Assembly (NCBI RefSeq): GCF_002252565.1
Contig: NZ_NPML01000018.1
Span: 1 to 64,000 of the forward strand
Direction of reading: 5' to 3'
DNA length: 64,000 nucleotides
Origin: Petroclostridium xylanilyticum
GTDB lineage: Bacteria; Bacillota; Clostridia; SK-Y3
The notes below the pieces were generated by a model, which made no database searches, had not been told where the DNA came from, and was given only the letters and a program-made list of their open reading frames with translations. The position numbers and the translations under genes are program-made. Below are positions 468-60,938 of the stretch, one piece after another. Position 1 is the stretch's first letter. Every line of letters starts with the position of its first letter.

Positions 468-519
468 TGTGACATGGGGACGGTTCGTGTGTCACATGTG
501 ATTAAGGAACCGTCCCCAT
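468..519. repeat. GGGGACGGTTC hairpin element
   Basis: GGGGACGGTTC at 476-486 faces GAACCGTCCCC at 507-517, with TGTGACA/TGTCACA words around the left core. It is a member of the dispersed family discussed with the RAYT element at 52732-53583. Confidence 0.9.
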
Positions 520-549
520 TGTTCCGCACTAAGCACCTGGCACCGCTTC

Positions 550-1565: not shown

Positions 1566-1629
1566 TGTGACATGGGGACGGTTCTCTGTCACATGCTCTT
1601 TTTATGTGTCAGAAGAACCGTCCCCATGG
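1566..1629. repeat. GGGGACGGTTC hairpin element
   Basis: GGGGACGGTTCT and AGAACCGTCCCC form the arms, with TGTCACAT and ATGTGTCA nested inside. It lies immediately downstream of the DUF2442 gene, between it and the nuclease gene. Confidence 0.9.
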
Positions 1630-1942: not shown

Positions 1943-2037
1943 TGTGACATGGGGACGGTTCGTCTGTCACCTGCGCTTTTTATGTGACTGAGGAACCGTC
2001 CCCATGTCACATTTTATGTGTCAGAAGAACCGTCCCC
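1943..2037. repeat. GGGGACGGTTC hairpin element plus an extra half-copy
   Basis: A full element (1943-2011) with outer TGTGACAT/ATGTCACA stems is followed by a second right half ending in AGAACCGTCCCC. It lies upstream of the DUF2442 gene. Confidence 0.9.
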
Positions 2038-2040
2038 TTG

Positions 2041-2272: not shown

Positions 2273-2520
2273 ATGCTTTCCGGTCCATTTCCGCCAAATC
2301 ACCGAATAAGTCCGAAACCAAACACAGTAAGCCTTAGAACACTGGAAAGGTATTTAAAACTCTATTATGAAGGTGGTCTTGAGGCATTAAAGCCAAGTCA
2401 AAAGGAACGGGCCTCCAGAATACCAGTGGACTATCTGGAACAAGCTGCCCTATTAAGACGTGAAAATCCCAAGCGCAGTATTCTAACCATTATCTCTATG
2501 CTAGAAAAATCCGGACCGAC
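2273..2520 (+). pseudogene. Transposase N-terminal helix-turn-helix fragment, unit A
   Basis: The frame encodes VSLRTLERYLKLYYEGGLEA, then LKPSQKERASRIP and LRRENPKRSILTIISMLEKS. This resembles the DNA-binding N-terminus of Mu/IS481-type DDE transposases. No catalytic domain follows: the frame runs into a GACGGTTC hairpin at 2513 and stops. No ribosome site is visible. It is a decayed fragment interrupted or abutted by the hairpin. Confidence 0.65.
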
Positions 2521-2590
2521 GGTTCGTCTGTCACATGCGCTTTTTATGTGACTGAAGAACCGTCCCTATGTCACCCTAGAACCGTCCCCT
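2513..2590. repeat. GACGGTTC hairpin element, partly degenerate
   Basis: The left core reads GACGGTTC with a degraded 5' side, and the right core GAACCGTCCC. An extra right half (AGAACCGTCCCC) follows. It cuts off the transposase remnant and lies close to the junction between units A and B. Confidence 0.85.
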
Positions 2591-2635
2591 TGGTTCATAT
2601 TCGTTTTTCCATTACTAAGCGCCTGGCACCGCTTC

Positions 2636-3544
2636 TTAGTTATTTAAGTATGGGTCCAAGTCCTCTGCCTTTTCAATATTAAATATATTCAGTGCTATTT
2701 TTTTAAGCTGTTCTTCTCCTAATCGCTCAATCTTCTGCCTGTAATCCGATGGAATGTTTTTAATTCTTTGTTCCAGTTGCATCATGATTACTTGCTCTAT
2801 TCCTTTTTCTATCCCTTTTTCTATTCCTTTTTCTATCCCTTTTTCTATTCCTTTTTCTATTCCTTTTTTCTCCGCAAATTTTATTACATTCAACATGCTT
2901 ATCTCCTCCCATATCTCTTCATAATCATTCAAATTTAAAAACTTATCGGCCAACACAAGAACTGCCGATACTATGGCCTCATAATGGCTTTTCTTTAACT
3001 TTATTCTACTGCATAATTTTATTACTTCTTTGGTTCTCTCTTTTACAGTTTTTGTGCTTTTCATAATTGGTAGAAATATCAGGTTAAGCCAGTCGGGCTG
3101 TTGCCCACTGTTGATTTTTTGTACTTCCTGTTCATAAATTATGTCTCCATCATATTGCTTCATATGTATTATTTCAATTCTATAATTGATTGCACCCATC
3201 TCAAAACCCTGTTCCAGCTGCTCATTTTTGCCACTGTATATTACCACTGTCTTGACCGGCTTTTTATGCTGCATTATCATTCTGGCATCGTACATGAATA
3301 TTCTATAAAGAGTCTCCTGTGTAAAGTCCGATTGAAACTCCAGATGCAGTAAACTGCTGTCCTTTAGTTCAAACATGAAATCAGTGTGCATGGTATTGGC
3401 TTCTATCTTAGGAAGTTCTGTAGGGAATATCCTTTCTATTTGTGCACATTTTATTCCCAGAAATTCCAATATCCTTCCCTTGAATACACCTGCCGCCAAT
3501 TTGAATATTAAATCATAATTCTTATCCGTTACTTTCTTTTGCAT
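2636..3544 (-). CDS. Rpn family nuclease/putative transposase, copy B
   Basis: A 302-residue copy of the 550-1470 gene, with identical predicted protein except for one fewer GIEK block (five plus GIEQ). The same ATG with GGAGG seven bases upstream is used. Catalytic-type residues in TDFMFEL and HLEFQ are intact, so this copy is not visibly inactivated. Nucleotide differences from copy A are few, indicating recent duplication rather than independent arrival. Confidence 0.85.
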   Translation of the reverse strand: MQKKVTDKNYDLIFKLAAGVFKGRILEFLGIKCAQIERIFPTELPKIEANTMHTDFMFELKDSSLLHLEFQSDFTQETLYRIFMYDARMIMQHKKPVKTVVIYSGKNEQLEQGFEMGAINYRIEIIHMKQYDGDIIYEQEVQKINSGQQPDWLNLIFLPIMKSTKTVKERTKEVIKLCSRIKLKKSHYEAIVSAVLVLADKFLNLNDYEEIWEEISMLNVIKFAEKKGIEKGIEKGIEKGIEKGIEKGIEQVIMMQLEQRIKNIPSDYRQKIERLGEEQLKKIALNIFNIEKAEDLDPYLNN

Positions 3545-3639
3545 CTTCACACCTCCAGTTTATCATATTTGCCACCTATTGTAAATCCAGTATATATCAA
3601 ACATATGTTCGTGTCAATGGTGAAAATATGTGACATGGG

Positions 3640-3703
3640 TGTGACATGGGGACGGTTCTCTGTCACATGCTCTTTTTATGTGTCAGAAGAACCGTCCCCA
3701 TGG
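3640..3703. repeat. GGGGACGGTTC hairpin element, unit B copy
   Basis: Copy of the 1566-1629 element at the 2074-base tandem period. Confidence 0.9.
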
Positions 3704-4016: not shown

Positions 4017-4111
4017 TGTGACATGGGGACGGTTCGTCTGTCACCTGCGCTTTTTATGTGACTGAGGAACCGTCCCCATGTCACATTTTATGTGTCAGAA
4101 GAACCGTCCCC
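4017..4111. repeat. GGGGACGGTTC hairpin element, unit B copy
   Basis: Tandem-period copy of the 1943-2037 element with its extra half. Confidence 0.9.
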
Positions 4112-4346
4112 TTGGTTTGTGTCTAAGGATTTCAAAAAGTTTTTTAATTCTAGCATCTTACTATTAAAATTAATTCCTCTTGCAGAACAAAAGTTTTCAA
4201 TCCACTTGTTAGTGCCGGCTTAAAAAATCCGCAAATCTATCAAATTTCCAATGTAAAATTACGTATTTGTGTGAAAAAATAAAAAGAAAAAAAGAAAACT
4301 ACTCATAACAGAGTTATGAAGTAGCAACAACAAAATCTTATTTCAT

Positions 4347-4709: not shown

Positions 4710-5618
4710 TTAGTTATTTAAGTATGGGTCCAAGTCCTCTGCCTTTTCAATATTAAATATATTCAGTGCTATTTTTTTAAGCTGTTCTTCTCCTAATCGC
4801 TCAATCTTCTGCCTGTAATCCGATGGAATGTTTTTAATTCTTTGTTCCAGTTGCATCATGATTACTTGCTCTATTCCTTTTTCTATCCCTTTTTCTATTC
4901 CTTTTTCTATCCCTTTTTCTATTCCTTTTTCTATTCCTTTTTTCTCCGCAAATTTTATTACATTCAACATGCTTATCTCCTCCCATATCTCTTCATAATC
5001 ATTCAAATTTAAAAACTTATCGGCCAACACAAGAACTGCCGATACTATGGCCTCATAATGGCTTTTCTTTAACTTTATTCTACTGCATAATTTTATTACT
5101 TCTTTGGTTCTCTCTTTTACAGTTTTTGTGCTTTTCATAATTGGTAGAAATATCAGGTTAAGCCAGTCGGGCTGTTGCCCACTGTTGATTTTTTGTACTT
5201 CCTGTTCATAAATTATGTCTCCATCATATTGCTTCATATGTATTATTTCAATTCTATAATTGATTGCACCCATCTCAAAACCCTGTTCCAGCTGCTCATT
5301 TTTGCCACTGTATATTACCACTGTCTTGACCGGCTTTTTATGCTGCATTATCATTCTGGCATCGTACATGAATATTCTATAAAGAGTCTCCTGTGTAAAG
5401 TCCGATTGAAACTCCAGATGCAGTAAACTGCTGTCCTTTAGTTCAAACATGAAATCAGTGTGCATGGTATTGGCTTCTATCTTAGGAAGTTCTGTAGGGA
5501 ATATCCTTTCTATTTGTGCACATTTTATTCCCAGAAATTCCAATATCCTTCCCTTGAATACACCTGCCGCCAATTTGAATATTAAATCATAATTCTTATC
5601 CGTTACTTTCTTTTGCAT
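4710..5618 (-). CDS. Rpn family nuclease/putative transposase, copy C
   Basis: A third copy, 302 residues, with the same predicted protein as copy B. The tandem unit ends about 75 bases upstream of its start, so this copy has a different upstream region: a terminator-like hairpin at 5704-5735 instead of the DUF2442 gene. Its expression may therefore differ from copies A and B. Confidence 0.85.
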   Translation of the reverse strand: MQKKVTDKNYDLIFKLAAGVFKGRILEFLGIKCAQIERIFPTELPKIEANTMHTDFMFELKDSSLLHLEFQSDFTQETLYRIFMYDARMIMQHKKPVKTVVIYSGKNEQLEQGFEMGAINYRIEIIHMKQYDGDIIYEQEVQKINSGQQPDWLNLIFLPIMKSTKTVKERTKEVIKLCSRIKLKKSHYEAIVSAVLVLADKFLNLNDYEEIWEEISMLNVIKFAEKKGIEKGIEKGIEKGIEKGIEKGIEQVIMMQLEQRIKNIPSDYRQKIERLGEEQLKKIALNIFNIEKAEDLDPYLNN

Positions 5619-5703
5619 CTTCACACCTCCAGTTTATCATATTTGCCACCTATTGTAAATCCAGTATATATCAAACATATGTTCGTGTCAATGATGAAAA
5701 TAT

Positions 5704-5783: not shown

Positions 5784-5852
5784 TGTGACATGGGGACGGT
5801 TCGTCTGTCACATGCGCTTTTTATGTGACTAAGGAACCGTCCCCGTGTCACA
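5784..5852. repeat. GGGGACGGTTC hairpin element truncating cpsD
   Basis: A full element: TGTGACA, GGGGACGGTTC, TGTCACAT, spacer GCGCTTTTT, ATGTGACT, GGAACCGTCCCC, GTGTCACA. Its right edge supplies the TGA that ends the kinase fragment. Confidence 0.92.
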
Positions 5853-7002: not shown

Positions 7003-7205
7003 AATTAACCCCACTTCAATAAATTTTATAATATGTCGCTTTTTATGTATGATATAAACAAAATTATTATACCATTATAGCCTTTTCCCTTCAAATAAAA
7101 ATTTATTTCCTCTGCTGCGTTAACAATCTCTGAGCCTTTCCACAATATTCATAAACCAGATTAAATGCACCCTTTAATACCGGTTCTTAGATTATCAATT
7201 AAAAT

Positions 7206-7238
7206 GGCCCAATACTCCCGTAATTACCATATTGAGCC
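7206..7238 (-). terminator. Expression-platform terminator of riboswitch copy 2
   Basis: Same GGCTCAATA/TATTGGGCC hairpin and T-rich tail as copy 1, between the aptamer and wzz. Confidence 0.7.
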
Positions 7239-7255
7239 TTAAAAACACTCTTTTC

Positions 7256-7329
7256 GGCAACCTGGCAATCATAGTCAAAAACAACTTTAGACCCATAGCT
7301 TTGCGTCCTTACCTTTCGATAAGTTTGCC
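7256..7329 (-). promoter_or_regulatory. c-di-GMP-I (GEMM-I) riboswitch upstream of wzz
   Basis: Carries GGACGCAAAGC, the GAAA-capped P2 hairpin and the GGCAA/TTGCC P1 closure on the minus strand. Its position between a good promoter and the wzz-cpsD remnant suggests that cyclic di-GMP controls polysaccharide chain-length machinery. Whether the ligand turns expression on or off cannot be decided by reading; the terminator downstream indicates control of transcription. Confidence 0.87.
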
Positions 7330-7386
7330 TTTTTGCGAATTATTTTTAAATTTACCATCATTAATACATTTTACATTTCTTGTTAA

Positions 7387-7416
7387 ATTATAAACTATTT
7401 TGGCGAATTGTGTCAA
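7387..7416 (-). promoter_or_regulatory. sigma-A promoter for the riboswitch-wzz transcript
   Basis: TTGACA at 7411-7416 and TATAAT at 7387-7392 with an 18-base spacer. Confidence 0.82.
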
Positions 7417-7439
7417 GACATATATTGTAAAAAAACAAA

Positions 7440-7541
7440 TGTGACATGGGGACGGTTCTCTGTCACATGCTCTTTTTATGTGTCAGAAGAACCGTCCCCA
7501 TGGTTTAAGAACCGTCCCCATGGTTTAGTCCCCATGGTTTA
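7440..7541. repeat. GGGGACGGTTC hairpin element with two extra partial right halves
   Basis: The full hairpin is followed by two further fragments of decreasing length, each ending CCCCATGGTTTA. This suggests stepwise growth by slippage or repeated partial insertion. It starts at the outer edge of the 349-bp repeat. Confidence 0.85.
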
Positions 7542-7791: not shown

Positions 7792-8499
7792 TTATGCCAT
7801 GTCAAGGTTTTTCTTTAATCTATCGCAAATTCGTTTTACTGCTTCAGGTTCTAGTTCTGCAACTTTGTGTATAAGACGCGCTTTATCTAAATAATGAATT
7901 TGCTCTGTTTTTGCCTTTGAAGGAATTTTATCTAACCTACCACTTTTTATATCTTTTAATTCTATTTTTTCATGTGGTGGATATAATTTTCCGCTACTTG
8001 ATATTGGTATGCAAACTACTGTATTGCCATATAAATTTCCTTTATTGTTTTGCACAATTAAAACAAGATGCTTATTATTTATTTCTTTTCCAATATTTTC
8101 CCCTAATTGGGCTAAATAAATATCTCCTCTTCTAGGTCTAATGGGATGAAATTTTTTCTTATCTTTATTCCTAATTTCCTCCTGCTCAGATGCTAATAAA
8201 TTAATATCTAATTTTTCATTTAACCAGTTACAATATCTTATACTATCACTGTGCTTTCTTTTGTTAATCCCTTGTTTTAATTTCATTATACAAGATTCTA
8301 GTATTTTGATTTCTTCTAATGATAAATCATTTAAACTTGGCGAAAGGTAATACTTTAAAACATTTATTAATTCATTAAAATCATTATCACAAGCCCTTTT
8401 TTTTATTTCAGAAAAGATACTATCTAATATAGAATTCTTCTCTTTTGTTAGTTCATTAATGCCATCTTTTTCTTCAAATGTTTCAAAATTAAATTCCAA
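7792..8499 (-). CDS. PemK/MazF-family toxin-like protein with long N-terminal extension
   Basis: A 235-residue protein. From about residue 118 it matches MazF/PemK endoribonuclease toxins: RPRRGDIYLAQLG, then KHLVLIVQNN and GNTVVCIPIS. MazF proteins are usually about 110-120 residues; the extra ~115 residues here are charged, probably helical, and not recognised. TTG at 8499 is chosen because GGGGGG lies about ten bases upstream. No classical MazE-like gene is adjacent; a 41-codon frame immediately upstream (8503-8628) overlaps the ribosome-site region and could be a partner. The extension might act as a built-in control domain, which is inference. Confidence 0.75.
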   Translation of the reverse strand: MEFNFETFEEKDGINELTKEKNSILDSIFSEIKKRACDNDFNELINVLKYYLSPSLNDLSLEEIKILESCIMKLKQGINKRKHSDSIRYCNWLNEKLDINLLASEQEEIRNKDKKKFHPIRPRRGDIYLAQLGENIGKEINNKHLVLIVQNNKGNLYGNTVVCIPISSSGKLYPPHEKIELKDIKSGRLDKIPSKAKTEQIHYLDKARLIHKVAELEPEAVKRICDRLKKNLDMA

Positions 8500-8654: not shown

Positions 8655-8754
8655 CATGACATGGGGACGGTTCGTCTGTCACATGCGCTTTTTATGTGAC
8701 TAAGGAACCGTCCCCGTGTCACATATGTGACTAAGGAACCGTCCCCGTGTCACA
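8655..8754. repeat. GGGGACGGTTC hairpin element with duplicated right half, overlapping hepT stop
   Basis: A complete hairpin is followed by a second ATGTGACTAAGGAACCG... half. The final GTGTCACAT provides the TGA of the HepT gene. Confidence 0.9.
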
Positions 8755-9160
8755 TATCAAGTTTTAAAACAATCTCTGCAAACGTTAATAAATCATCCAA
8801 ATGCAACGCAATAATTTTCTCAATGATTTTAATATTAATAGATTGATAATCATGCACTGCAATATTACGAAATCCTACCATAGCTTTTAATTTCGCAGCT
8901 AAATCATTATCAATAATATGATGCTCATAAAGAAAATCAAACGCATCCCTGCTATTCTGCGGCAAACCTAATGCCTTTTCAGACACAATATGCATCGCAA
9001 TGTCTATTGCCGCTTCACATGCTCTCTGAATATTTAGAATAATGGCATCCTGCTTTGTAAAATTGTTTAAGTTCTCAAGGTTGTTATCATATTCCTCGTG
9101 TATTCTCTTTATACAGCGCCGGATTATACTAACTTTGTTTAAAATAATATCAGTTGGCAT
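8750..9160 (-). CDS. hepT: HepT-like ribonuclease toxin (DUF86/HEPN)
   Basis: A 136-residue HEPN-domain protein of the HepT family, the RNase toxin of MntA-HepT systems. The catalytic R-X4-H-X-Y motif is seen as RNIAVHDY with R98, H103 and Y105. The start overlaps the end of the upstream nucleotidyltransferase gene by 11 bases, as usual for this operon. The last codons (LKLDM) and TGA are supplied by a GGGACGGTTC hairpin, so the native C-terminus may have been trimmed by a few residues; length is still normal. In known systems MntA adds AMP groups to the tyrosine of this motif to silence the toxin. Confidence 0.9.
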   Translation of the reverse strand: MPTDIILNKVSIIRRCIKRIHEEYDNNLENLNNFTKQDAIILNIQRACEAAIDIAMHIVSEKALGLPQNSRDAFDFLYEHHIIDNDLAAKLKAMVGFRNIAVHDYQSINIKIIEKIIALHLDDLLTFAEIVLKLDM

Positions 9161-9569
9161 AATCTACACCTCGTCCCTTTATCCTATCAATGACACACTG
9201 CCGTTCTTCATTCAATAAAGCATATTCCTTCAATGCCTTCATTTGAAATATCATTCTCTTATAAGGTTCTTTATCATAAATTACTTTTCCATTGGCAACA
9301 ATTTGTGCTTTAAAAACCGTAGACGCTTTATTTAGATCAATCAGATCTACTTCCCTACCTAATGTATCCGCAAGCTCCTGAGCAATCATAAAAACGTGAT
9401 ATTCATCACAGCTACAATTGCTCATAAACGCAATGTCAACATCACTATCATCCCTTAGTTTACCTTTTGCTGCAGAACCAAATAGGATGGTAAAATCCGG
9501 CGACAGCTTATCTTTTAATAAATCATTAATTTTCTCTATATCGGTTGATTCTAAACTTCTATTTTTCAT
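9150..9569 (-). CDS. mntA: MntA-type minimal nucleotidyltransferase antitoxin
   Basis: About 139 residues of the Pol-beta-like minimal nucleotidyltransferase family. The GS-X10-D-X-D motif is complete (GSAAKGKLRDDSDVD), with a third acidic residue in VDLIDL. It is the antitoxin of the HepT pair: it AMPylates the HEPN toxin. ATG at 9569 is about ten bases from GGGA; GTG at 9578 is an alternative. It overlaps hepT by 11 bases. The pair lies between murJ and wzz, separated from murJ by a hairpin element. Confidence 0.9.
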   Translation of the reverse strand: MKNRSLESTDIEKINDLLKDKLSPDFTILFGSAAKGKLRDDSDVDIAFMSNCSCDEYHVFMIAQELADTLGREVDLIDLNKASTVFKAQIVANGKVIYDKEPYKRMIFQMKALKEYALLNEERQCVIDRIKGRGVDYAN

Positions 9570-9599
9570 CCTAATCACATCCCGATTCCTGTTATTCTG

Positions 9600-9668
9600 T
9601 GTGTCATGGGGACGGTTCGTCTGTCACCTGCGCTTTTTATGTGACTGAGGAACCGTCCCCATGACACA
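9600..9668. repeat. GGGGACGGTTC hairpin element with variant closing stem
   Basis: The core arms are standard, but the outer stem is TGTGTCAT/ATGACACA, not the more common TGTGACAT/ATGTCACA. Both strands of the stem change together. A further right half-copy (AAGAACCGTCCCC) lies at 9752-9764. Confidence 0.9.
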
Positions 9669-9784
9669 TCTCCACTCTCGCTGTCCTTGGCATTTCTTCC
9701 ACCCCATTTACCTCCTCTCAATTTATCTTATCATAGTATTAAATTCAATTCAAGAACCGTCCCCAAATTCACCCCCAATGCGCT

Positions 9785-52689: not shown

Positions 52690-52731
52690 ATTGAAAAAAT
52701 ATTTAAACTTTATTCAGACAATAGTCTCAGA

Positions 52732-53583
52732 CAATAGGGACGGTTCTTATTGACAAATCACCTAGAGCTATTATAAAATTAGTTTGAGGTGATTTATGTG
52801 CCAAGAATAGCAAGAGAGAAAAGCAGTTCGGGGATATATCATATTATGGTAAGAGGAATCAATCAACAAGACATTTTTGAAGATGATGAAGATAGACAAA
52901 GATATATAGAAACATTAGAGAGATTTAAAAAGGAAACTAATTTTGAAATTTATGCGTATTGCTTAATGAATAATCATGTCCATTTGCTCATAAGAGAAAA
53001 AGAAGTGGAAATATCAAAAATATTGAAAAAGATCGGTACAAGTTATGCCTACTATTTTAATTGGAAGTATGAAAGGAACGGACATTTATTTCAAGATAGG
53101 TATAAGAGCGAAACGGTGGAAAGTAATAGCTATTTTTGTATGGTAATAAGGTATATACACCAAAACCCTGTAAAAGCCGGATTATCGAGTATGGAAGATT
53201 ATAAATGGAGTAGCTACAATAGTTATATACATAGAGATAGACAAACAATGATTGATGCGGAATTTTTTCTAGGAATGCTATCAGAGAATAAAGACCTGGC
53301 AATAAAAAGGTATATTGATTACATGAACGAGCCTAACAATGATAAATGCTTAGAAATAGAAAATAAAGTTAAATTAACCGATGAGAAAGCAAGAGATATT
53401 ATAAAAAAAATAGGTAATTTAAAAAACATATCGGATATACAAAGATTAGATATCGAAAAAAGAAATAGTATTTTGAAAAAAGCCAAGGAAATAGAGGGCA
53501 TGTCTGTTCTGCAGATATCAAGAGTAACGGGTATTAATAGAACTGCTATTAGTAAAGCTTGACAGCAAGAACCGTCCCTGTTG
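52732..53583 (+). mobile_element. RAYT element bounded by GGGACGGTTC inverted repeats
   Basis: Ends at 52732-52756 and 53559-53583 are inverted 25-base repeats with 21 matches, both centred on GGGACGGTTCTT. The transposase gene fills the space and its TGA lies inside the right repeat. The same core forms the hairpins scattered through the window, so this is the likely source of the activity that spread them. Confidence 0.85.
52798..53562 (+). CDS. REP-associated tyrosine transposase (RAYT, Y1_Tnp family)
   Basis: 254 residues beginning VPRIAREKSSSGIYHIMVRG. The Y1/HUH transposase motif is seen as CLMNNHVHLLI (histidine pair), with DRYKSETVE and VIRYIHQNPVKAGL downstream, and a C-terminal helix-turn-helix-like end (ISRVTGINRTAISKA). 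GTG at 52798 is the start because GAGGTGAT is six bases upstream. The RAYT group handles single-stranded REP hairpins. The gene is intact. Confidence 0.92.
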   Translation: MPRIAREKSSSGIYHIMVRGINQQDIFEDDEDRQRYIETLERFKKETNFEIYAYCLMNNHVHLLIREKEVEISKILKKIGTSYAYYFNWKYERNGHLFQDRYKSETVESNSYFCMVIRYIHQNPVKAGLSSMEDYKWSSYNSYIHRDRQTMIDAEFFLGMLSENKDLAIKRYIDYMNEPNNDKCLEIENKVKLTDEKARDIIKKIGNLKNISDIQRLDIEKRNSILKKAKEIEGMSVLQISRVTGINRTAISKA

Positions 53584-53970: not shown

Positions 53971-55323
53971 TTACCCCTTCTTCCTGCTAAATCGGACTTT
54001 TTCAGTGGTTTCGAACCGTCCCCTGTCGCAAATCATTCCGCAGTATAAGAAAAAGATAATTGAAATAAGTTGAAAATGCATGTCTACATCTATCAATGAA
54101 TGGGACAAGATTGTTAATATAACTATCAAGTAGTACCAGTCCTTTTGTTTTGCTCTTGCAAATCTCACTAAAGTACTAATAATAAATACCATGAGAGAAG
54201 CAAAACCGGTCAGTCCTACATCGGTTAATACCTGTAAGAAATAGTTGTGTACGTATTTTACATAATCTGCCGCATATTGCTCGCATAGCACTGCCCATCC
54301 CATCGCCCCTGCACCAAAAAGGGGATAGTCGGCTATAAGCCTTAGAGCCCCTTTATAATAAGCCATTCTCGCTGCCCATTCAGTAACATCAAAACCGATA
54401 TCTGTTATTCTACTGTAAACCGGATTTCTCACAAGGTTAATAGCTGCAAGCCCGATAACCATTAATACTTTTAATGAATTCATATAAAACGGCATACCCA
54501 GGTATTCAGGAAGTATGGCCGTGATTGCTCCAATTAACAGTACTACTGTAAACCGTATTTCTCCAGAGTTAGATACTAAGAATAGAGAAACAATCGCTGA
54601 TAGTGCTAATAAAAACAAATATCTTATTTTACTATCTTTATCCAGTAACCTCCCGGACAATAATATAAATAAGCTAAAAAGAGAGAATATTATCCACATT
54701 CCACGGGAATAAGTCAGGACCAATCCACAGGTAAGGATATATATGCACAGGTTTAGCACCACTCTCCACTCCCCACTCCTCACTTGACTCAGATACTTTA
54801 AACATAATATAATCCCTATCATAAAATATACAGCTGCAGTATTTGCATAGTGAAAAGTCGATTGTACTCTTTCATCAAATACCGCTCCTTCAATAGGAAA
54901 TATACCTGATAACGCCATCAATCCTAATAGGCTTACAATGACACCTGAAATTATAATGCCCTTATCTATCCATTGTTTATGATGGTTGTGGCACAATGAA
55001 CCAATCATAAAGACAGGTGTAAATGCGATTACTCTTAACGCTTCCCGCAGTGCTCCTTCTTTGTTTACTCCATATAGAACTGATACAATATACAGGACTG
55101 AAAATACAAAAAGAGATATAACTGTCCTGTTAAGAAACAGTTTATCTCTTTTTTGATATATAATATAACCCGCATATATCATAATGACGATATTTGCTAT
55201 AAGGTATTGATGAAAAAAGTATAATCCCTGAAAAATAGACGCAATAATAAAAAATAGAATTACTGCGGTTTTCTCAATACATGTTTTTATTCTGCTATTC
55301 TGCCCGTTTGTCTTAGCTACCAT
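53971..55323 (-). CDS. O-antigen ligase-like membrane protein
   Basis: 450 residues with about 12 predicted membrane helices. A large loop near the C-terminal third (ADYPLFGAGAMGWAVLCEQY, then YVHNYFLQVLTDVGLTGFA) is the Wzy_C/WaaL signature; such enzymes transfer or polymerise lipid-linked glycans. Two odd parts come from repeats: residues about 180-188 (QVRSGEWRV) are encoded by the GGGGAGTG repeat in frame, and the last ~14 residues (FETTEKVRFSRKKG) by the GGACTTTTTCAGTGGTTTCG repeat, which also gives the stop region. No polysaccharide genes adjoin it. Confidence 0.82.
   Translation of the reverse strand: MVAKTNGQNSRIKTCIEKTAVILFFIIASIFQGLYFFHQYLIANIVIMIYAGYIIYQKRDKLFLNRTVISLFVFSVLYIVSVLYGVNKEGALREALRVIAFTPVFMIGSLCHNHHKQWIDKGIIISGVIVSLLGLMALSGIFPIEGAVFDERVQSTFHYANTAAVYFMIGIILCLKYLSQVRSGEWRVVLNLCIYILTCGLVLTYSRGMWIIFSLFSLFILLSGRLLDKDSKIRYLFLLALSAIVSLFLVSNSGEIRFTVVLLIGAITAILPEYLGMPFYMNSLKVLMVIGLAAINLVRNPVYSRITDIGFDVTEWAARMAYYKGALRLIADYPLFGAGAMGWAVLCEQYAADYVKYVHNYFLQVLTDVGLTGFASLMVFIISTLVRFARAKQKDWYYLIVILTILSHSLIDVDMHFQLISIIFFLYCGMICDRGRFETTEKVRFSRKKG
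53976..54013. repeat. GGACTTTTTCAGTGGTTTCG repeat fused to GAACCGTCCCC
   Basis: Shares about 38 bases with 26345-26387. It is followed directly by a GAACCGTCCCC half of the hairpin family, so two repeat families meet here, inside the 3' end of the ligase gene. Confidence 0.8.
54761..54786. repeat. GGGGAGTG-family repeat inside a coding sequence
   Basis: AGTGAGGAGTGGGGAGTGG on the minus strand matches the intergenic repeats at 29957 and 30149 but here is translated in frame. Confidence 0.85.
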
Positions 55324-56033: not shown

Positions 56034-56064
56034 CGTGACAGTGAGAACCGTCCCCACTGTCACG
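56034..56064. repeat. GGGACGGTTC hairpin at the sbcC stop, with its own stem
   Basis: CGTGACAGTG (56034-56043) and CACTGTCACG (56055-56064) close over the conserved loop AGAACCGTCCC. The sbcC TGA is inside the right stem. The stem sequence differs from other family members but is perfectly complementary. Degenerate repeat words at 55970-56010 adjoin it. Confidence 0.88.
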
Positions 56065-59000
56065 CTTTTTCTATTCTCACCTGGCTGCCCTTTCCATCGG
56101 AAGATGGTGGCTCGACGATAAGGCGGCGGGTTATCCTGCTCTTTAGTTCTGGCACATGGCTGATAAGGCCGATGACTCTTTTTGTGGTACTTAATCTCTC
56201 CAGCGAATCTATTACGGTATCCAGAAGATTCGTATCCAGCGTCCCAAAACCTTCATCCAGGAAGAAAAATTCCAGAGGACTCTGGCCTTTTAGCTGGATT
56301 TGCGATGACAGAGCCAATGCGAGCGATAGAGATGTTAAGAAGGTTTCGCCTCCGGATAAAGATGATACAGGCCTGTGTACGCCCCCATTGGCATTATCCC
56401 TGATTACAAATCCGTTTTCGGTATCCAGTTCCAACGTGTATCTGTACCTTGTCAGTACTCCTAAAAGTTCAGAAGCTTCTTTTGCGATATACCTTAATCT
56501 CTCCTCGGATATAAACTCTATAAAGCTGTTCCCTTTAAGCAGCTTTTGTATCTGGTCCAGCATTTCCTTCTTTTTACTATATTTTTGCCATTCTTTGTTC
56601 AGTTCAACCCATTGATCAAAATTCTTTTTGATATTGTTGTAAATGCTTTTTGCATTTTCATACCGTGAGATGCTGTCTTCCTTCTGCTGCTTCTTTAATA
56701 GATAGTTCTCACTGATTGTCTGCCATTGCTCTTCCGTTATCCTTCTCCCGTTCAGCTTTTTATTCAATAGATCTTTTTGAGTTTCCAATTTCTTTTGAAT
56801 ATCTTCATACTGTTTTATCTCTTCATGCAGGCATTTCTGCTGTTCACCGGACAATAAGCAGTTTTCAACCTCGTCTACGCTTGCAAAGCCCCTTTGTTCA
56901 AGTGCTGTATGCAATCTTTGCATTTCATCATGCAAATTTGTGACATAAATTGTTTTTTGATTCTCCAAAGTGCTTTTCTGCGTGCTGATATTATTAAACT
57001 GTTCCCTTATTTCTTTCAGATACTCCGTAAGCCGCTGTTTTTCTTTCTGCAATAGTGCGATTTTCATATCTATTTCTTTGAGTCCTTCTTCTATATCTTT
57101 ATCCCCCGTGAGTTCCTTCAACTTCTGAATTTTTTCCTCCTGCTGTTCTCTTAGACTCCTCCCTTCCGTTTGGACATCGGCAGCTTTACTTTCCCATGCC
57201 TGCTTATCGGCTATCAATTGTTCAATCTCTTTTTTTATAGTTTCTGAGGACTTTTGCAGCTGCTCCATTTGCTGCTGTCGTTTTTCTATCTTCCTGTCAT
57301 TTTGTTCAATCCTGTCCAGTTCACTGCTGATACTTTGAATACCCAGTTTCTTAATAAATATATTGTAGGATTCAAATATATGCTTGAAATGATGAATGCA
57401 TTCATTAAGTACCTTCTCCTGCTGGAGCAAATTATCTTTATTTATTTCCAGCTCAGCTCTTCTAACACTTTCTTCAATTTTCTGCCCGGATAATGCATCT
57501 TCTAGTTTTGATATGCTTTTCTTTATCTCTTCCAGTTTTGTTTCCCATTGCTCTATTGCTTTCAGCTTCTTCTCGTTTGTTTCTCTGACATGATCTAAAA
57601 CTGTCTCCAGTTGTTCCAGTGCCAAGTCCTGCATATGCCGAGGAAGTGTGTTAACCAGCCGGACATATTCATCCTGCTTTAGCGCTAGATCTTTTGCTGT
57701 CTGAACGGACTGGCTTTCCAACACTTTAAGCTGTTCATGAAGTTTTATGCAATTATTCTCCGCTAACCTATAGCTCTTTTCAGTTTCGGCCAGCTGCTCT
57801 TCAGCCTGTTTTAGCTGCTGTTCTATTTCATGCATTTTTTGCTGCTCTACTGCATTTGCAGGGTTAGGGTGGTGTAAAGATCCGCAGACCGGACATGGAA
57901 GTCCTTCACTTAAATTTTTTGCCAAAGCATAGGCCGTATTTTTGTCATATAGTGTTTTAAATTTTTCAACCCTTTCACGACCGGTGTTAAGTAAAGCCTC
58001 CAGACTGGTTTTATGCAGTTCAGCTTCTTTGCATTTCTCCCCTTGCTGTTGGATGTGGGCATGAATACTGTCCAGGCGCGCACTAATGGCATCTATATCT
58101 GCTTTTTTGGACCTTAGTGCTTCCCATTTTAATTTTATATCATGGTAGCTTCTTTCATCCGCCATGAGTTCATTCCGGTCACCCGGTTTTGTGCTCTCAT
58201 GCTTTACCTGCTGGGATTTTAACTCTTCCAATTTGGCCTGCAGCAGCTGTGTCTGCTTGGAAGCCTCCTCAAGTTTGATCTCCAGTTCACAGATTTTAGA
58301 AGACAGGTCATTATACTCCCGCTGGTGTTTATCCCTGTCCTGCCTGGCTTTATTTAATTCTTCCTCCAGCTTTATTCCTGCCTGTACTTGTTTTCTATCG
58401 TCAACATCTACTTTTAACTTTTCAATATCCTGCCTGCATTCCATGATGCTTTTCTCTAATGCCTCAAGCTCCTGCTTCTTTTTGATAACCTCCTGGTCTT
58501 TCGCCCTAATCTTCTCATTATGGCTTCTATAGCTGTCGCGAAGCATTTGCAGTTTTGTTTCAATTGCACATATTTCCTGTTTTACCTCTAATGCATTATT
58601 AAATTTTGCTTTAAGTTCTACCAGCATGGGAATTTCTATTTCTGCCTTTTCAAGGATTCTGTCATATTCGGCCTGCGCCTTATTCATTTGCGTCTCCAGA
58701 TCAGGCAGCAGCTTGTATATTGATTCCAACTGATGCCGGGTATCCGCTAAATTCTTTTCAGCCTCCCTGTATTTGCTGATGACATCCACCAAGCCATCGG
58801 CCTTGACAGCCTTTTCATAGAGCTTCCTTTTATTGTTTATTTCCTCTAAGCCTGATAAATGTTCCTTTTCTTTATCGGTGATATCCTTTAATTCATTGAC
58901 AAGCTCCCATACTTCTTTTGCTTCATTATATTCTATCTCAGCCATTTTAAGTTCATCATCCGAATTCTCTTTATCCTGCCACGCCGTTTTCATCTTTCCT

Positions 59001-59668
59001 TCAGCTTCTATCAATGCTTTTTCCGAGGCATCCCCTAAAGAAGACATGGCACCTTCTATATGGGACAGCTTATTTCTTATATCTGATAGTTTTTTGCCAA
59101 CTTTTTCGGTCAACCCTCTCCCATATTCCTCAAGGTAGAATATGCGCTCCATCATATCCCTTTTTTTGGCCTTATCCAACAGAAGGAATTCCTGGAACTT
59201 GTTCTGCGGAAGTACTACGGAACGGGTGAAATCATCCGGATCAAGCCCTACAAGGTCTATCACCTTTGCTGTAACCTCCCGCTCCTTGTCTGCCATGACA
59301 ATATCTCCATCACCGGCAATCTCAAAAAGTCTTACCAGTCTGGCCTCAATAAAACTGTCCGAACCTTTTTTTCTTTTATATACTCTTTCTACCTTATAGG
59401 TCTTCCGCGTATTTTCCTTTAACAGGTCAAAGGTGAAGGATACCCGGACATTGCTCATGTCGGTATTAATAATACCCTGAGTACCACGGTTTGCACGCTG
59501 CACATTTCCATATAGCGCTAAAGTAATGGCATCCAGTATGGTAGACTTTCCGCTGCCGGTAGGACCAAAAATGCCGAACAGCCCTGTTTCCCCCAGCTTG
59601 TCAAAATCTATTTTTTGAGTTTCTTTAAAGCTCTGCAAGCCTTCTATCTCTAAATATCTTGGTCTCAT
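56060..59668 (-). CDS. sbcC: Exonuclease SbcC (Rad50-like ATPase)
   Basis: 1202 residues. Walker A GPTGSGKS is at 35-42, long coiled coils follow, and the zinc hook is CPVC at C592/C595; a second coiled coil leads to the ABC signature LSGGETF and Walker B FFFLDEGFGTLD. With SbcD it opens hairpins and trims DNA ends, a function of note in a genome with so many palindromes. The start overlaps the sbcD stop by one base (TAATG). The last codons run into a GGGACGGTTC hairpin. Confidence 0.96.
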   Translation of the reverse strand: MRPRYLEIEGLQSFKETQKIDFDKLGETGLFGIFGPTGSGKSTILDAITLALYGNVQRANRGTQGIINTDMSNVRVSFTFDLLKENTRKTYKVERVYKRKKGSDSFIEARLVRLFEIAGDGDIVMADKEREVTAKVIDLVGLDPDDFTRSVVLPQNKFQEFLLLDKAKKRDMMERIFYLEEYGRGLTEKVGKKLSDIRNKLSHIEGAMSSLGDASEKALIEAEGKMKTAWQDKENSDDELKMAEIEYNEAKEVWELVNELKDITDKEKEHLSGLEEINNKRKLYEKAVKADGLVDVISKYREAEKNLADTRHQLESIYKLLPDLETQMNKAQAEYDRILEKAEIEIPMLVELKAKFNNALEVKQEICAIETKLQMLRDSYRSHNEKIRAKDQEVIKKKQELEALEKSIMECRQDIEKLKVDVDDRKQVQAGIKLEEELNKARQDRDKHQREYNDLSSKICELEIKLEEASKQTQLLQAKLEELKSQQVKHESTKPGDRNELMADERSYHDIKLKWEALRSKKADIDAISARLDSIHAHIQQQGEKCKEAELHKTSLEALLNTGRERVEKFKTLYDKNTAYALAKNLSEGLPCPVCGSLHHPNPANAVEQQKMHEIEQQLKQAEEQLAETEKSYRLAENNCIKLHEQLKVLESQSVQTAKDLALKQDEYVRLVNTLPRHMQDLALEQLETVLDHVRETNEKKLKAIEQWETKLEEIKKSISKLEDALSGQKIEESVRRAELEINKDNLLQQEKVLNECIHHFKHIFESYNIFIKKLGIQSISSELDRIEQNDRKIEKRQQQMEQLQKSSETIKKEIEQLIADKQAWESKAADVQTEGRSLREQQEEKIQKLKELTGDKDIEEGLKEIDMKIALLQKEKQRLTEYLKEIREQFNNISTQKSTLENQKTIYVTNLHDEMQRLHTALEQRGFASVDEVENCLLSGEQQKCLHEEIKQYEDIQKKLETQKDLLNKKLNGRRITEEQWQTISENYLLKKQQKEDSISRYENAKSIYNNIKKNFDQWVELNKEWQKYSKKKEMLDQIQKLLKGNSFIEFISEERLRYIAKEASELLGVLTRYRYTLELDTENGFVIRDNANGGVHRPVSSLSGGETFLTSLSLALALSSQIQLKGQSPLEFFFLDEGFGTLDTNLLDTVIDSLERLSTTKRVIGLISHVPELKSRITRRLIVEPPSSDGKGSQVRIEKA

Positions 59669-60924
59669 TATATCACCTCCTCCATCATCATTTCTTCATC
59701 TTCCTCACTATCATTTAACACATCAAGAAAAGTATTGATAAGCTCTTCGGATACTTCTACTCCCACTTTATATTTATAAAATTCTTTAAATAATTCATCA
59801 ATCTTCTTTGTTTCCCTGCTTTGATATCCCTCTGCTTCCCTGTCCGCCGTCTTTATGATTGGTCTTATATTGATAATTCCAGGGTTTAGTTCTCTAAGCT
59901 TTTTTTGTTCTTCCATTGTTAATACCCTGTCGGTGTGAACCTCAAGGTCTATCCAGGCATTGGCATCCCTGCCCTGTTCGCACCATTCGAGGGCTTCTTC
60001 CATGCCGTTTTTTGCTACCCATTTTACCAGGGGCCTTCCACAATTTAATGTGATTTCATGAATCACTGATTCACTTCCTGGAACCGCATCTACGATGTAT
60101 ACTACTTTGCTGTATCCTGCTTCTGAAAAGCTGTATGCAAGGGGAGAGCCGGAATAGCACGTAGGAGACGGAGCACTTTTTATTCTCTGGGGTCTGTGCA
60201 AATGTCCCAGTGCAATATAATGGGCATTCCCCGGTAAAACTTGCGGGTCTACCGTCATCGCCCCTCCGACCTGCAGCGTCCTTTCAGACTCTGACTGTTT
60301 TCCTCCTCTTAAAAAAATATGACTCACTACAAGGTTAACCGTATCATCCCTGAATTTTTCGCCAAGCTTTGCAAATATACTCCCTATCTTATCCGAATAG
60401 GCCTGCTGAAGCTTTTCTTCATCCGCTTCCCGGGACAATACCTGTTCCAGCCTTGACTCCGAGGGATAGGGCAGGGCAATGATTACAGCATGGTGTTCAC
60501 AACTGCCTATATGAAGTTCCAGCCATCCCGGCCCCGAATCAACAATTTTTACATTTTTACCGGCAATGGGATATGTACCTGCATCACTATCAGGATAACC
60601 CAACAGTATTACGCCATTTTTATATGCCAGAGGGCTTGCCGCACAAAGTCTTTCGGGACTGTCATGATTCCCGGCTATAACAACAACTGCCCTTCTTCCT
60701 TTACCATTGAGCCTGTCCACCGCTTCATAAAAAAGCTCCTCTGCTGCCGATGATGGCGTATATGTATCAAATATATCGCCTGCAATAAGGACGATATCAA
60801 CGTTCTCCCGCTCTACGATATCACAAAGTTCATTAATAAACTCTCTTTGTTCATCTATCCTGTTTATATTCTCAAGACATTTTCCCAGATGCCAATCGGA
60901 CGTATGAAGGATTCTCACTGTCAT
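59668..60924 (-). CDS. sbcD: Exonuclease SbcD (Mre11-like nuclease)
   Basis: 418 residues. Metallophosphoesterase motifs in order: HTSDWHLGK, AGDIFDTYTPS, IAGNHDSPERL, VSHIFLRGG and GHLHRPQ. A C-terminal capping domain follows, with an acidic end (DSEEDEEMMMEEVI). It is the nuclease partner of SbcC. ATG at 60924 has AAGGAG only four bases upstream; GTG at 60915 is a possible start with longer spacing. It lies 14 bases after addA. Confidence 0.95.
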   Translation of the reverse strand: MTVRILHTSDWHLGKCLENINRIDEQREFINELCDIVERENVDIVLIAGDIFDTYTPSSAAEELFYEAVDRLNGKGRRAVVVIAGNHDSPERLCAASPLAYKNGVILLGYPDSDAGTYPIAGKNVKIVDSGPGWLELHIGSCEHHAVIIALPYPSESRLEQVLSREADEEKLQQAYSDKIGSIFAKLGEKFRDDTVNLVVSHIFLRGGKQSESERTLQVGGAMTVDPQVLPGNAHYIALGHLHRPQRIKSAPSPTCYSGSPLAYSFSEAGYSKVVYIVDAVPGSESVIHEITLNCGRPLVKWVAKNGMEEALEWCEQGRDANAWIDLEVHTDRVLTMEEQKKLRELNPGIINIRPIIKTADREAEGYQSRETKKIDELFKEFYKYKVGVEVSEELINTFLDVLNDSEEDEEMMMEEVI

Positions 60925-60938
60925 CACGCTCCTTGGTG

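Follow-up and report, generated by a model that had tools for sequence, protein, structure and literature searches.

Dispersed hairpins with a constant loop and covarying stems in Petroclostridium xylanilyticum, probable ends and offspring of a REP-associated Y1 HUH transposase

The 64,000-nucleotide stretch of Petroclostridium xylanilyticum DNA analysed here (contig NZ_NPML01000018.1, positions 1 to 64,000, hereafter the window) carries 31 exact matches to the core GGGACGGTTC, or 33 when one mismatch is allowed, against a chance expectation of 0.96 that none of 100 shuffles raised to the observed number. Although ORFs cover 83% of the window, 30 of the 31 cores lie outside them. In the 3.86-Mb genome the core is present in 217 copies (3 for the reversed pattern used as control), with the sequence context read for 185 of them, window included, and a sample of the phylum contained many genomes with tens to about 200 core copies. 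The cores are arranged in two architectures, namely single hairpins that hold the core in their loop (52732, 53563 and 56034) and double hairpins of 50-70 bp. The latter are built of a core, an inner hairpin and an inverted core, with about 41 bp from core to core, and their two cores also pair mutually; 45 such inverted core pairs were found in the genome stretches read. The hairpins and the transposase gene of the window are the following.

468..520: shorter double hairpin, its 5' foot tandemly repeated as GTGACATGG GTGTGACATG TGTGACATGGGG
1566..1629: double hairpin, core pair 1575/1615
1943..2040: double hairpin (core pair 1952/1993) with an extra core at 2027
2518..2592: partly decayed hairpins, cores 2557 and 2579
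3640..3703: double hairpin, copy of 1566-1629 in a repeated segment of ~2.1 kb
4017..4114: double hairpin, copy of 1943-2040, in the ~2.1-kb repeated segment shared with 3640..3703
5784..5852: double hairpin, feet TGTGACAT / (G)TGTCACA, direct foot repeat just upstream (TGTGACATG followed by TGTGACATGGGG)
7440..7541: double hairpin with an array of 3'-truncated 5'-arm copies; minus-strand reading TAAACCATGGGGAC, then TAAACCATGGGGACGGTTCT, then the full copy
8656..8754: double hairpin with one half duplicated in tandem, cores 8664, 8705 and 8736
9600..9668: double (REPIN/BIME-like) hairpin; foot TGTGTCAT, core GGGACGGTTC at 9609-9618, inner hairpin, inverted core at 9650-9659, foot ATGACACA
9744..9770, minus strand: single hairpin, stem AATT/AATT, core 9754
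52732..52752, plus strand: left-end single hairpin of the transposase element, CAATA-GGGACGGTTCT-TATTG
52789..53562, plus strand: Y1/HUH transposase gene (tnpA), 257 aa, HVH at 63-65, Tyr122 in YIHQNP
53563..53583, minus strand: right-end single hairpin, CAACA-GGGACGGTTCT-TGCTG with one wobble, abutting the end of the transposase gene
54005..54025, minus strand: single core without a good stem in the 3' end of an O-antigen-ligase-like ORF, the sole window core within a plausible ORF
56034..56064, minus strand: single hairpin CGTGACAGTG-GGGACGGTTCT-CACTGTCACG at the 3' end of an SbcC-like gene

The preliminary description of this DNA, which merged the two architectures, had proposed a constant loop closed by changing but paired stems, and this is borne out by the copies counted above. 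The stems TGTGACA/TGTCACA (5784), CAATA/TATTG (52732) and CGTGACAGTG/CACTGTCACG (56034) form true single hairpins with the letters given there; 5784 also figures in the list above as a double hairpin (5784..5852). The hairpin CAGCA/TGTTG, placed at 53562, is real, with its true position at 53563-53583 and one G.T pair. At 9600 the changed, paired arms are also present, although not as the stem of a single hairpin: TGTGTCAT and ATGACACA are separated by 60 bp and form the closing arms of the 69-nt double hairpin, which folds with -30.2 kcal/mol (z -10), and in the hairpin formed locally about the first core the changed position gives a T-T mismatch. Relative to the copy at 1943 the interior is identical and both feet differ, which means that two mirrored changes took place there.

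Some neighbours of the hairpins deserve mention. Two equal-scoring c-di-GMP-I riboswitches, 261-347 and 7253-7339 (-), belong to a segment that is present twice (roughly 60-480 and 7081-7500) and terminates at hairpins, and between 550 and 5640 hairpin arrays are found near the ends of the ~2.1-kb repeated segment, which carries with its hairpins a DUF4351-family ORF present three times (550-1476, 2636-3550 and 4710-5624). A HepT-like ribonuclease and nucleotidyltransferase pair of toxin-antitoxin type (8750-9578, minus strand) lies beside the 9600 double hairpin, and a MazF/PemK-like protein is encoded at 7792-8499. Directly beside the 56034 hairpin are SbcC- and SbcD-like genes (56060-60927, minus strand); SbcC/SbcD is a known hairpin nuclease.

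Covariation of the stems, the test proposed in the preliminary description, was assessed in 86-90 nonredundant hairpins from genomes G000, G021, G027 and G113 and from the transposase loci of other genomes, with pairwise differences at no fewer than 5-6 of 18 flank positions. The Watson-Crick pairing of every left-right column pair was compared with column permutation. Excess pairing appeared solely in the register -d:+(d+1), where the pairs -3:+4 to -8:+9 reached z 3-9 (in one set 4.3 for -3:+4, 5.3 for -4:+5, 7.0 for -5:+6, 4.8 for -6:+7, 3.7 for -7:+8 and 3.4 for -8:+9), with 15-29 both-side changes per stem pair in the 86-copy set; the 99 off-register column pairs gave no excess (sd 1.04, maximum z 2.9). 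Five to six of the six pairs are formed in 28 of the 86 hairpins, a state attained by 0-2 hairpins when the register was slid. Since these slid-register controls keep the relatedness of the copies, kinship cannot explain the covariation, and the copying of one ancestor with random decay, raised earlier as the opposing account, is refuted by it. There is a suggestion that the core may itself extend as a small hairpin in the same register, with G.T, G-C, G.T and A-T around CGG; in the variant GGGACGGTCC of genomes G025 and G104 one G.T of this putative inner hairpin becomes G-C.

Paired changes could also come about without any selection for recognition, if one arm were repaired against its partner by template switching so that both sides change at once. 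The mirrored changes in double hairpins (9600 versus 1943) would fit such a correction, as would most of 10 palindromes of genome G027, with their matching foot variants and matching inner variants. Nevertheless, unmatched feet are kept in many 51-bp double hairpins of the window genome, and the constant loop, the coupling to tnpA and the paired stems of single hairpins across genomes are left unexplained, making this a highly unlikely origin of the pairing. It was likewise considered whether the hairpins act at the RNA level, as terminators, stabilisers of mRNA or some unnamed structured RNA under selection on transcripts, in keeping with their being stable, intergenic and often located just after genes, 56034 and the SbcC-like gene being an example. 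This we regard as very improbable: at gathering score no Rfam family matches the hairpins of the window (matches elsewhere in it are the two c-di-GMP-I riboswitches and an L10 leader), the GGGAC strand shows no G.U bias, stem mismatches being about equally often G.T (42) and A.C (53), and the hairpins are found on either strand and face inward in a symmetric arrangement around tnpA. A strand asymmetry of hairpin stability was dropped as a candidate feature, the two strands folding with similar energies; given these energies and the equally common G.T and A.C mismatches, the stems give no sign of strand-specific recognition.

The window transposase matches Pfam Y1_Tnp (E 4.7e-19) and the NCBIfam model of REP-associated tyrosine transposases (REP_Tyr_transpos, NF047646), where it scores exactly at the 80-bit cut-off and which is matched by 36/36 TnpAs; with the NCBIfam IS200/IS605 model it stays far below threshold (25.3 versus a cut-off of 55). 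Its AlphaFold2 model has a mean pLDDT of 91, and both the sequence profile and the fold single out 4er8 (TnpAREP bound to a REP hairpin) as the best solved structure, with the IS608 and ISDra2 transposases next by fold. The C-terminus is predicted with high confidence to be helical, and Pfam HTH models match some of the 36 relatives and not the window protein. With an HUH motif, a single Tyr in Y---NP and a predicted TnpAREP fold, the protein can be assigned to the RAYT/TnpAREP type on the strength of its sequence and structural model. Relatives were found in 44 of 148 genomes of the class at E<=1e-20.

The gene is flanked on both sides by inward-pointing hairpin copies (52732 and 53563), and the same is seen for its relatives, where hairpins with the same loop and other stems point inward at tnpA: TATATCA/TGATATA (G135), AGACA/TGTCT (G139), AAGCA/TGCTT (G060), ATGAGTA/TACTCAT (G104) and GAAGCAA/TTGCTTC (G026). 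When GGGAC and a stem of at least 5 bp were required, an inward hairpin was present at 33 of 51 tnpA loci, on both sides at 17, the corresponding outward controls being 3 and 0; the remaining 18 loci had no inward GGGAC hairpin with such a stem. Both stems and loops differ among flanked TnpA relatives of 30-50% identity, most flanking loops starting with GGGAC and varying by lineage in their second half. In a comparison for which the flanking loops were entered by hand, the 4 nt after GGGAC were common to the nearest TnpA relative in 18 of 32 cases (7.5 by shuffle, p 0.0005), and the overall relation between TnpA identity and loop similarity was weak and not significant (Mantel r 0.12, p 0.13). 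Moreover, in genome G144 tnpA is flanked by GGGACGTTTC hairpins, and the genome holds 87 dispersed copies of GGGACGTTTC and none of GGGACGGTTC. Selection on structure and recognition of a constant loop, as first proposed, are thus supported by the covariation, by the tnpA-flanking loops with different stems and by this joint change of the loop in G144.

Dispersed copies form homogeneous families in which the same foot is found between different flanks (G144 TGTCCAATTG, G027 TGTCAAG, G000 CGACATG). Many copies of TGTCCAATTG-GGGACGTTTC-TGTTTGGGACA have unrelated flanks in G144, indicating that the stem travels with the element, palindromes of 54-57 bp that are 91-100% identical occupy many sites in G027, and derivatives of ~120 bp in G000 join the left end to the 3' end of tnpA. 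The stems might instead be supplied by the target, the element consisting of the loop only and inserting at the tip of pre-existing inverted repeats, in line with feet that vary freely around the unchanged interior of some derivatives, such as the left ends whose feet gatgacag, gacagag and acaatg all precede TTGTTGATAGATTAC; because the G144, G027 and G000 families keep their foot while the flanks differ, this is extremely improbable. The mobilisation mechanism first envisaged, recognising the loop and copying the stem, is supported as to the loop and not as to the stem, which within a subfamily simply accompanies the copies. Comparison of the congeneric genomes G113 and G086 (about 86% identical) revealed no clean empty site; one hairpin is shared at an orthologous site, and at another site an insertion of ~50 bp containing a hairpin is only roughly clean. 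A ~135-bp repeat family in G027 (L105:4546-4680; some 30 copies, 74-88% identity) is unrelated to the hairpins.

The hairpins are also associated with tandem duplications of their 5' arm. Direct foot repeats occur upstream of the left-end hairpin 52732 (CAGACAATA, ~52715-52724) and on the outer side of the right-end hairpin 53563..53583 (GATCAACA), and an exact 7-nt foot repeat is present within 60 nt upstream of 56 of 309 copies (control 2.8). A search without preset boundaries recovered 54 tandem duplications touching the 5' side, whose unit starts at -7..-12, that is, at the 5' base of the stem, in 53, and has a variable end, anywhere between the base of the loop and a point past the hairpin. 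The start of the shortest units is restricted by the minimum length that the search demanded, but longer units (at least 5 core bases) are equally anchored. Exact duplications concern the 5' arm in 47 cases versus 8 for the 3' arm; an apparent excess of 3'-arm repeats consisted mostly of the other halves of double hairpins and for the most part disappeared after their exclusion. These arrays hint at a fixed nick at the 5' base followed by re-joining after variable extension, a pattern that HUH enzymes could produce. Replication slippage at the hairpins, rather than nicking by TnpA, is a possible if somewhat doubtful source of the arrays, one that concerns their mechanism only and is compatible with the rest of the interpretation below: duplication ends cluster at the base, the tip and the start of the 3' arm, as expected if the polymerase paused at these points, against which stand the start fixed at the 5' base in 53/54 while the other end varies, the 47 versus 8 arm polarity and junctions that show no excess microhomology. 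A bolder view of nicking by TnpA is that the enzyme edits its own hairpins, the 3' end freed at the 5' base being extended along the arm and rejoined, so that arms would be duplicated and eventually both rewritten; an enzyme that reads only the GGGAC loop would then make, not merely tolerate, stem diversity. We hold this to be unlikely. As for the stem copying first envisaged, what is observed is polar 5'-arm duplication, which copies one arm and alone does not rewrite its partner.

Altogether, the hairpins probably serve as the ends recognised by a REP-associated (RAYT/TIRYT-type) Y1 HUH transposase and, where dispersed, represent its non-autonomous offspring. Stem covariation, linkage to tnpA, matching loops within one genome, multiplicity and polar duplications are the observations from which we infer loop binding, cleavage at a defined nick position and transposition by TnpA. 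The enzyme would recognise a folded single-strand hairpin through a loop starting with (A/G)GGGAC, and the stem would need only be paired, allowing its letters to drift while pairing is kept. In this scheme single hairpins face inward on both sides of tnpA, and deletion derivatives (~120 bp) and inverted pairs (50-70-bp REPIN-like palindromes) would have spread in many copies between the genes. The probable site of nicking by TnpA lies immediately 5' of the hairpin base, and rounds that fail or recur may leave tandem 5'-arm copies that all start at that base.

Among known systems, the best reading, judged from published features, is that the window system is closest to the TIRtrons, whose TIRYT tyrosine transposases are Y1 HUH enzymes with flanking inverted G-rich repeats and a GGGGWSAS motif (Di Nocera 2013, PMC3733652). 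Shared features are the Y---NP motif, inverted G-rich flanks and repeats found singly, in dimers and in groups; the predicted helical C-terminus may correspond to the C-terminal helix-turn-helix-like extension of that group. The GGGGWSAS motif is present in relatives (L102 GGGGTCAG; L109 and L083 GGGGACAG), and the window core GGGGACGG, itself within inverted repeats, differs from it at position 7 only; the TnpA relative at L102 (G085) has flanking GGGGTCAGGCTTGAA repeats that fit the published TIR motif. Whereas TIRtrons were described as having terminal inverted repeats, the G-rich motif is here a hairpin loop with covarying stems, in Clostridia and related genomes, an indication that the GGGGWSAS repeats of the literature are loops of hairpins. 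TIRYT probably corresponds to TnpAY1 subclass 2.1, which takes in almost every RAYT group 1 sequence sampled (Quentin 2018, PMC6006769), occurs in 14.9% of strains and yielded REP-like sequences in neither automatic nor manual searches (PMC6006769). We suggest that such structures escaped notice since conservation is limited to the loop.

The REP/BIME/REPIN sequences of RAYT groups 2 and 3 (E. coli TnpAREP, PDB 4er8) are similarly extragenic, present in more than 100 copies, often as inverted pairs, and flank a TnpAREP-type gene, and in group 3 REPs, too, the bases of the loop matter (PMC8266576). In those REPs a GTAG foot tag is kept while stem and loop vary, whereas here there is no tag, the 10-nt loop is conserved across the phylum and the stems are free. 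The tetranucleotide GT[AG]G stands at the hairpin foot in 7 of 328 copies (2.1% versus a background of 2.7%), and the window repeat is not a GTAG REP. IS200/IS605 elements (IS608, ISDra2) have the same HUH fold (2xma, 2vjv, 2a6o) and hairpin ends; known members lack terminal inverted repeats (PMC2817692), while the end hairpins here are inverted copies pointing inward. No published description of the GGGACGGTTC repeat was found in the open-access literature; among the matches listed for the motif and its complement, which look like primers or probes, none was a paper on a bacterial repeat.

Under the proposed assignment the large transposase group of subclass 2.1, reported to have no hairpin repeat, would acquire a cognate one, with a mode of recognition, by a fixed loop on a stem that is paired but free in sequence, that many Clostridia-related genomes conserve. 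Natural variants of stem and loop, including the genome whose transposase-flanking and dispersed copies share a different loop, make DNA-hairpin recognition by HUH enzymes directly testable. That same genome, G144, encodes a second TnpA paralogue (L157), whose flanking hairpins, GTCGCATA-GAGTTCGTTTGTC-TATGCGAC, have a loop without GGGAC.
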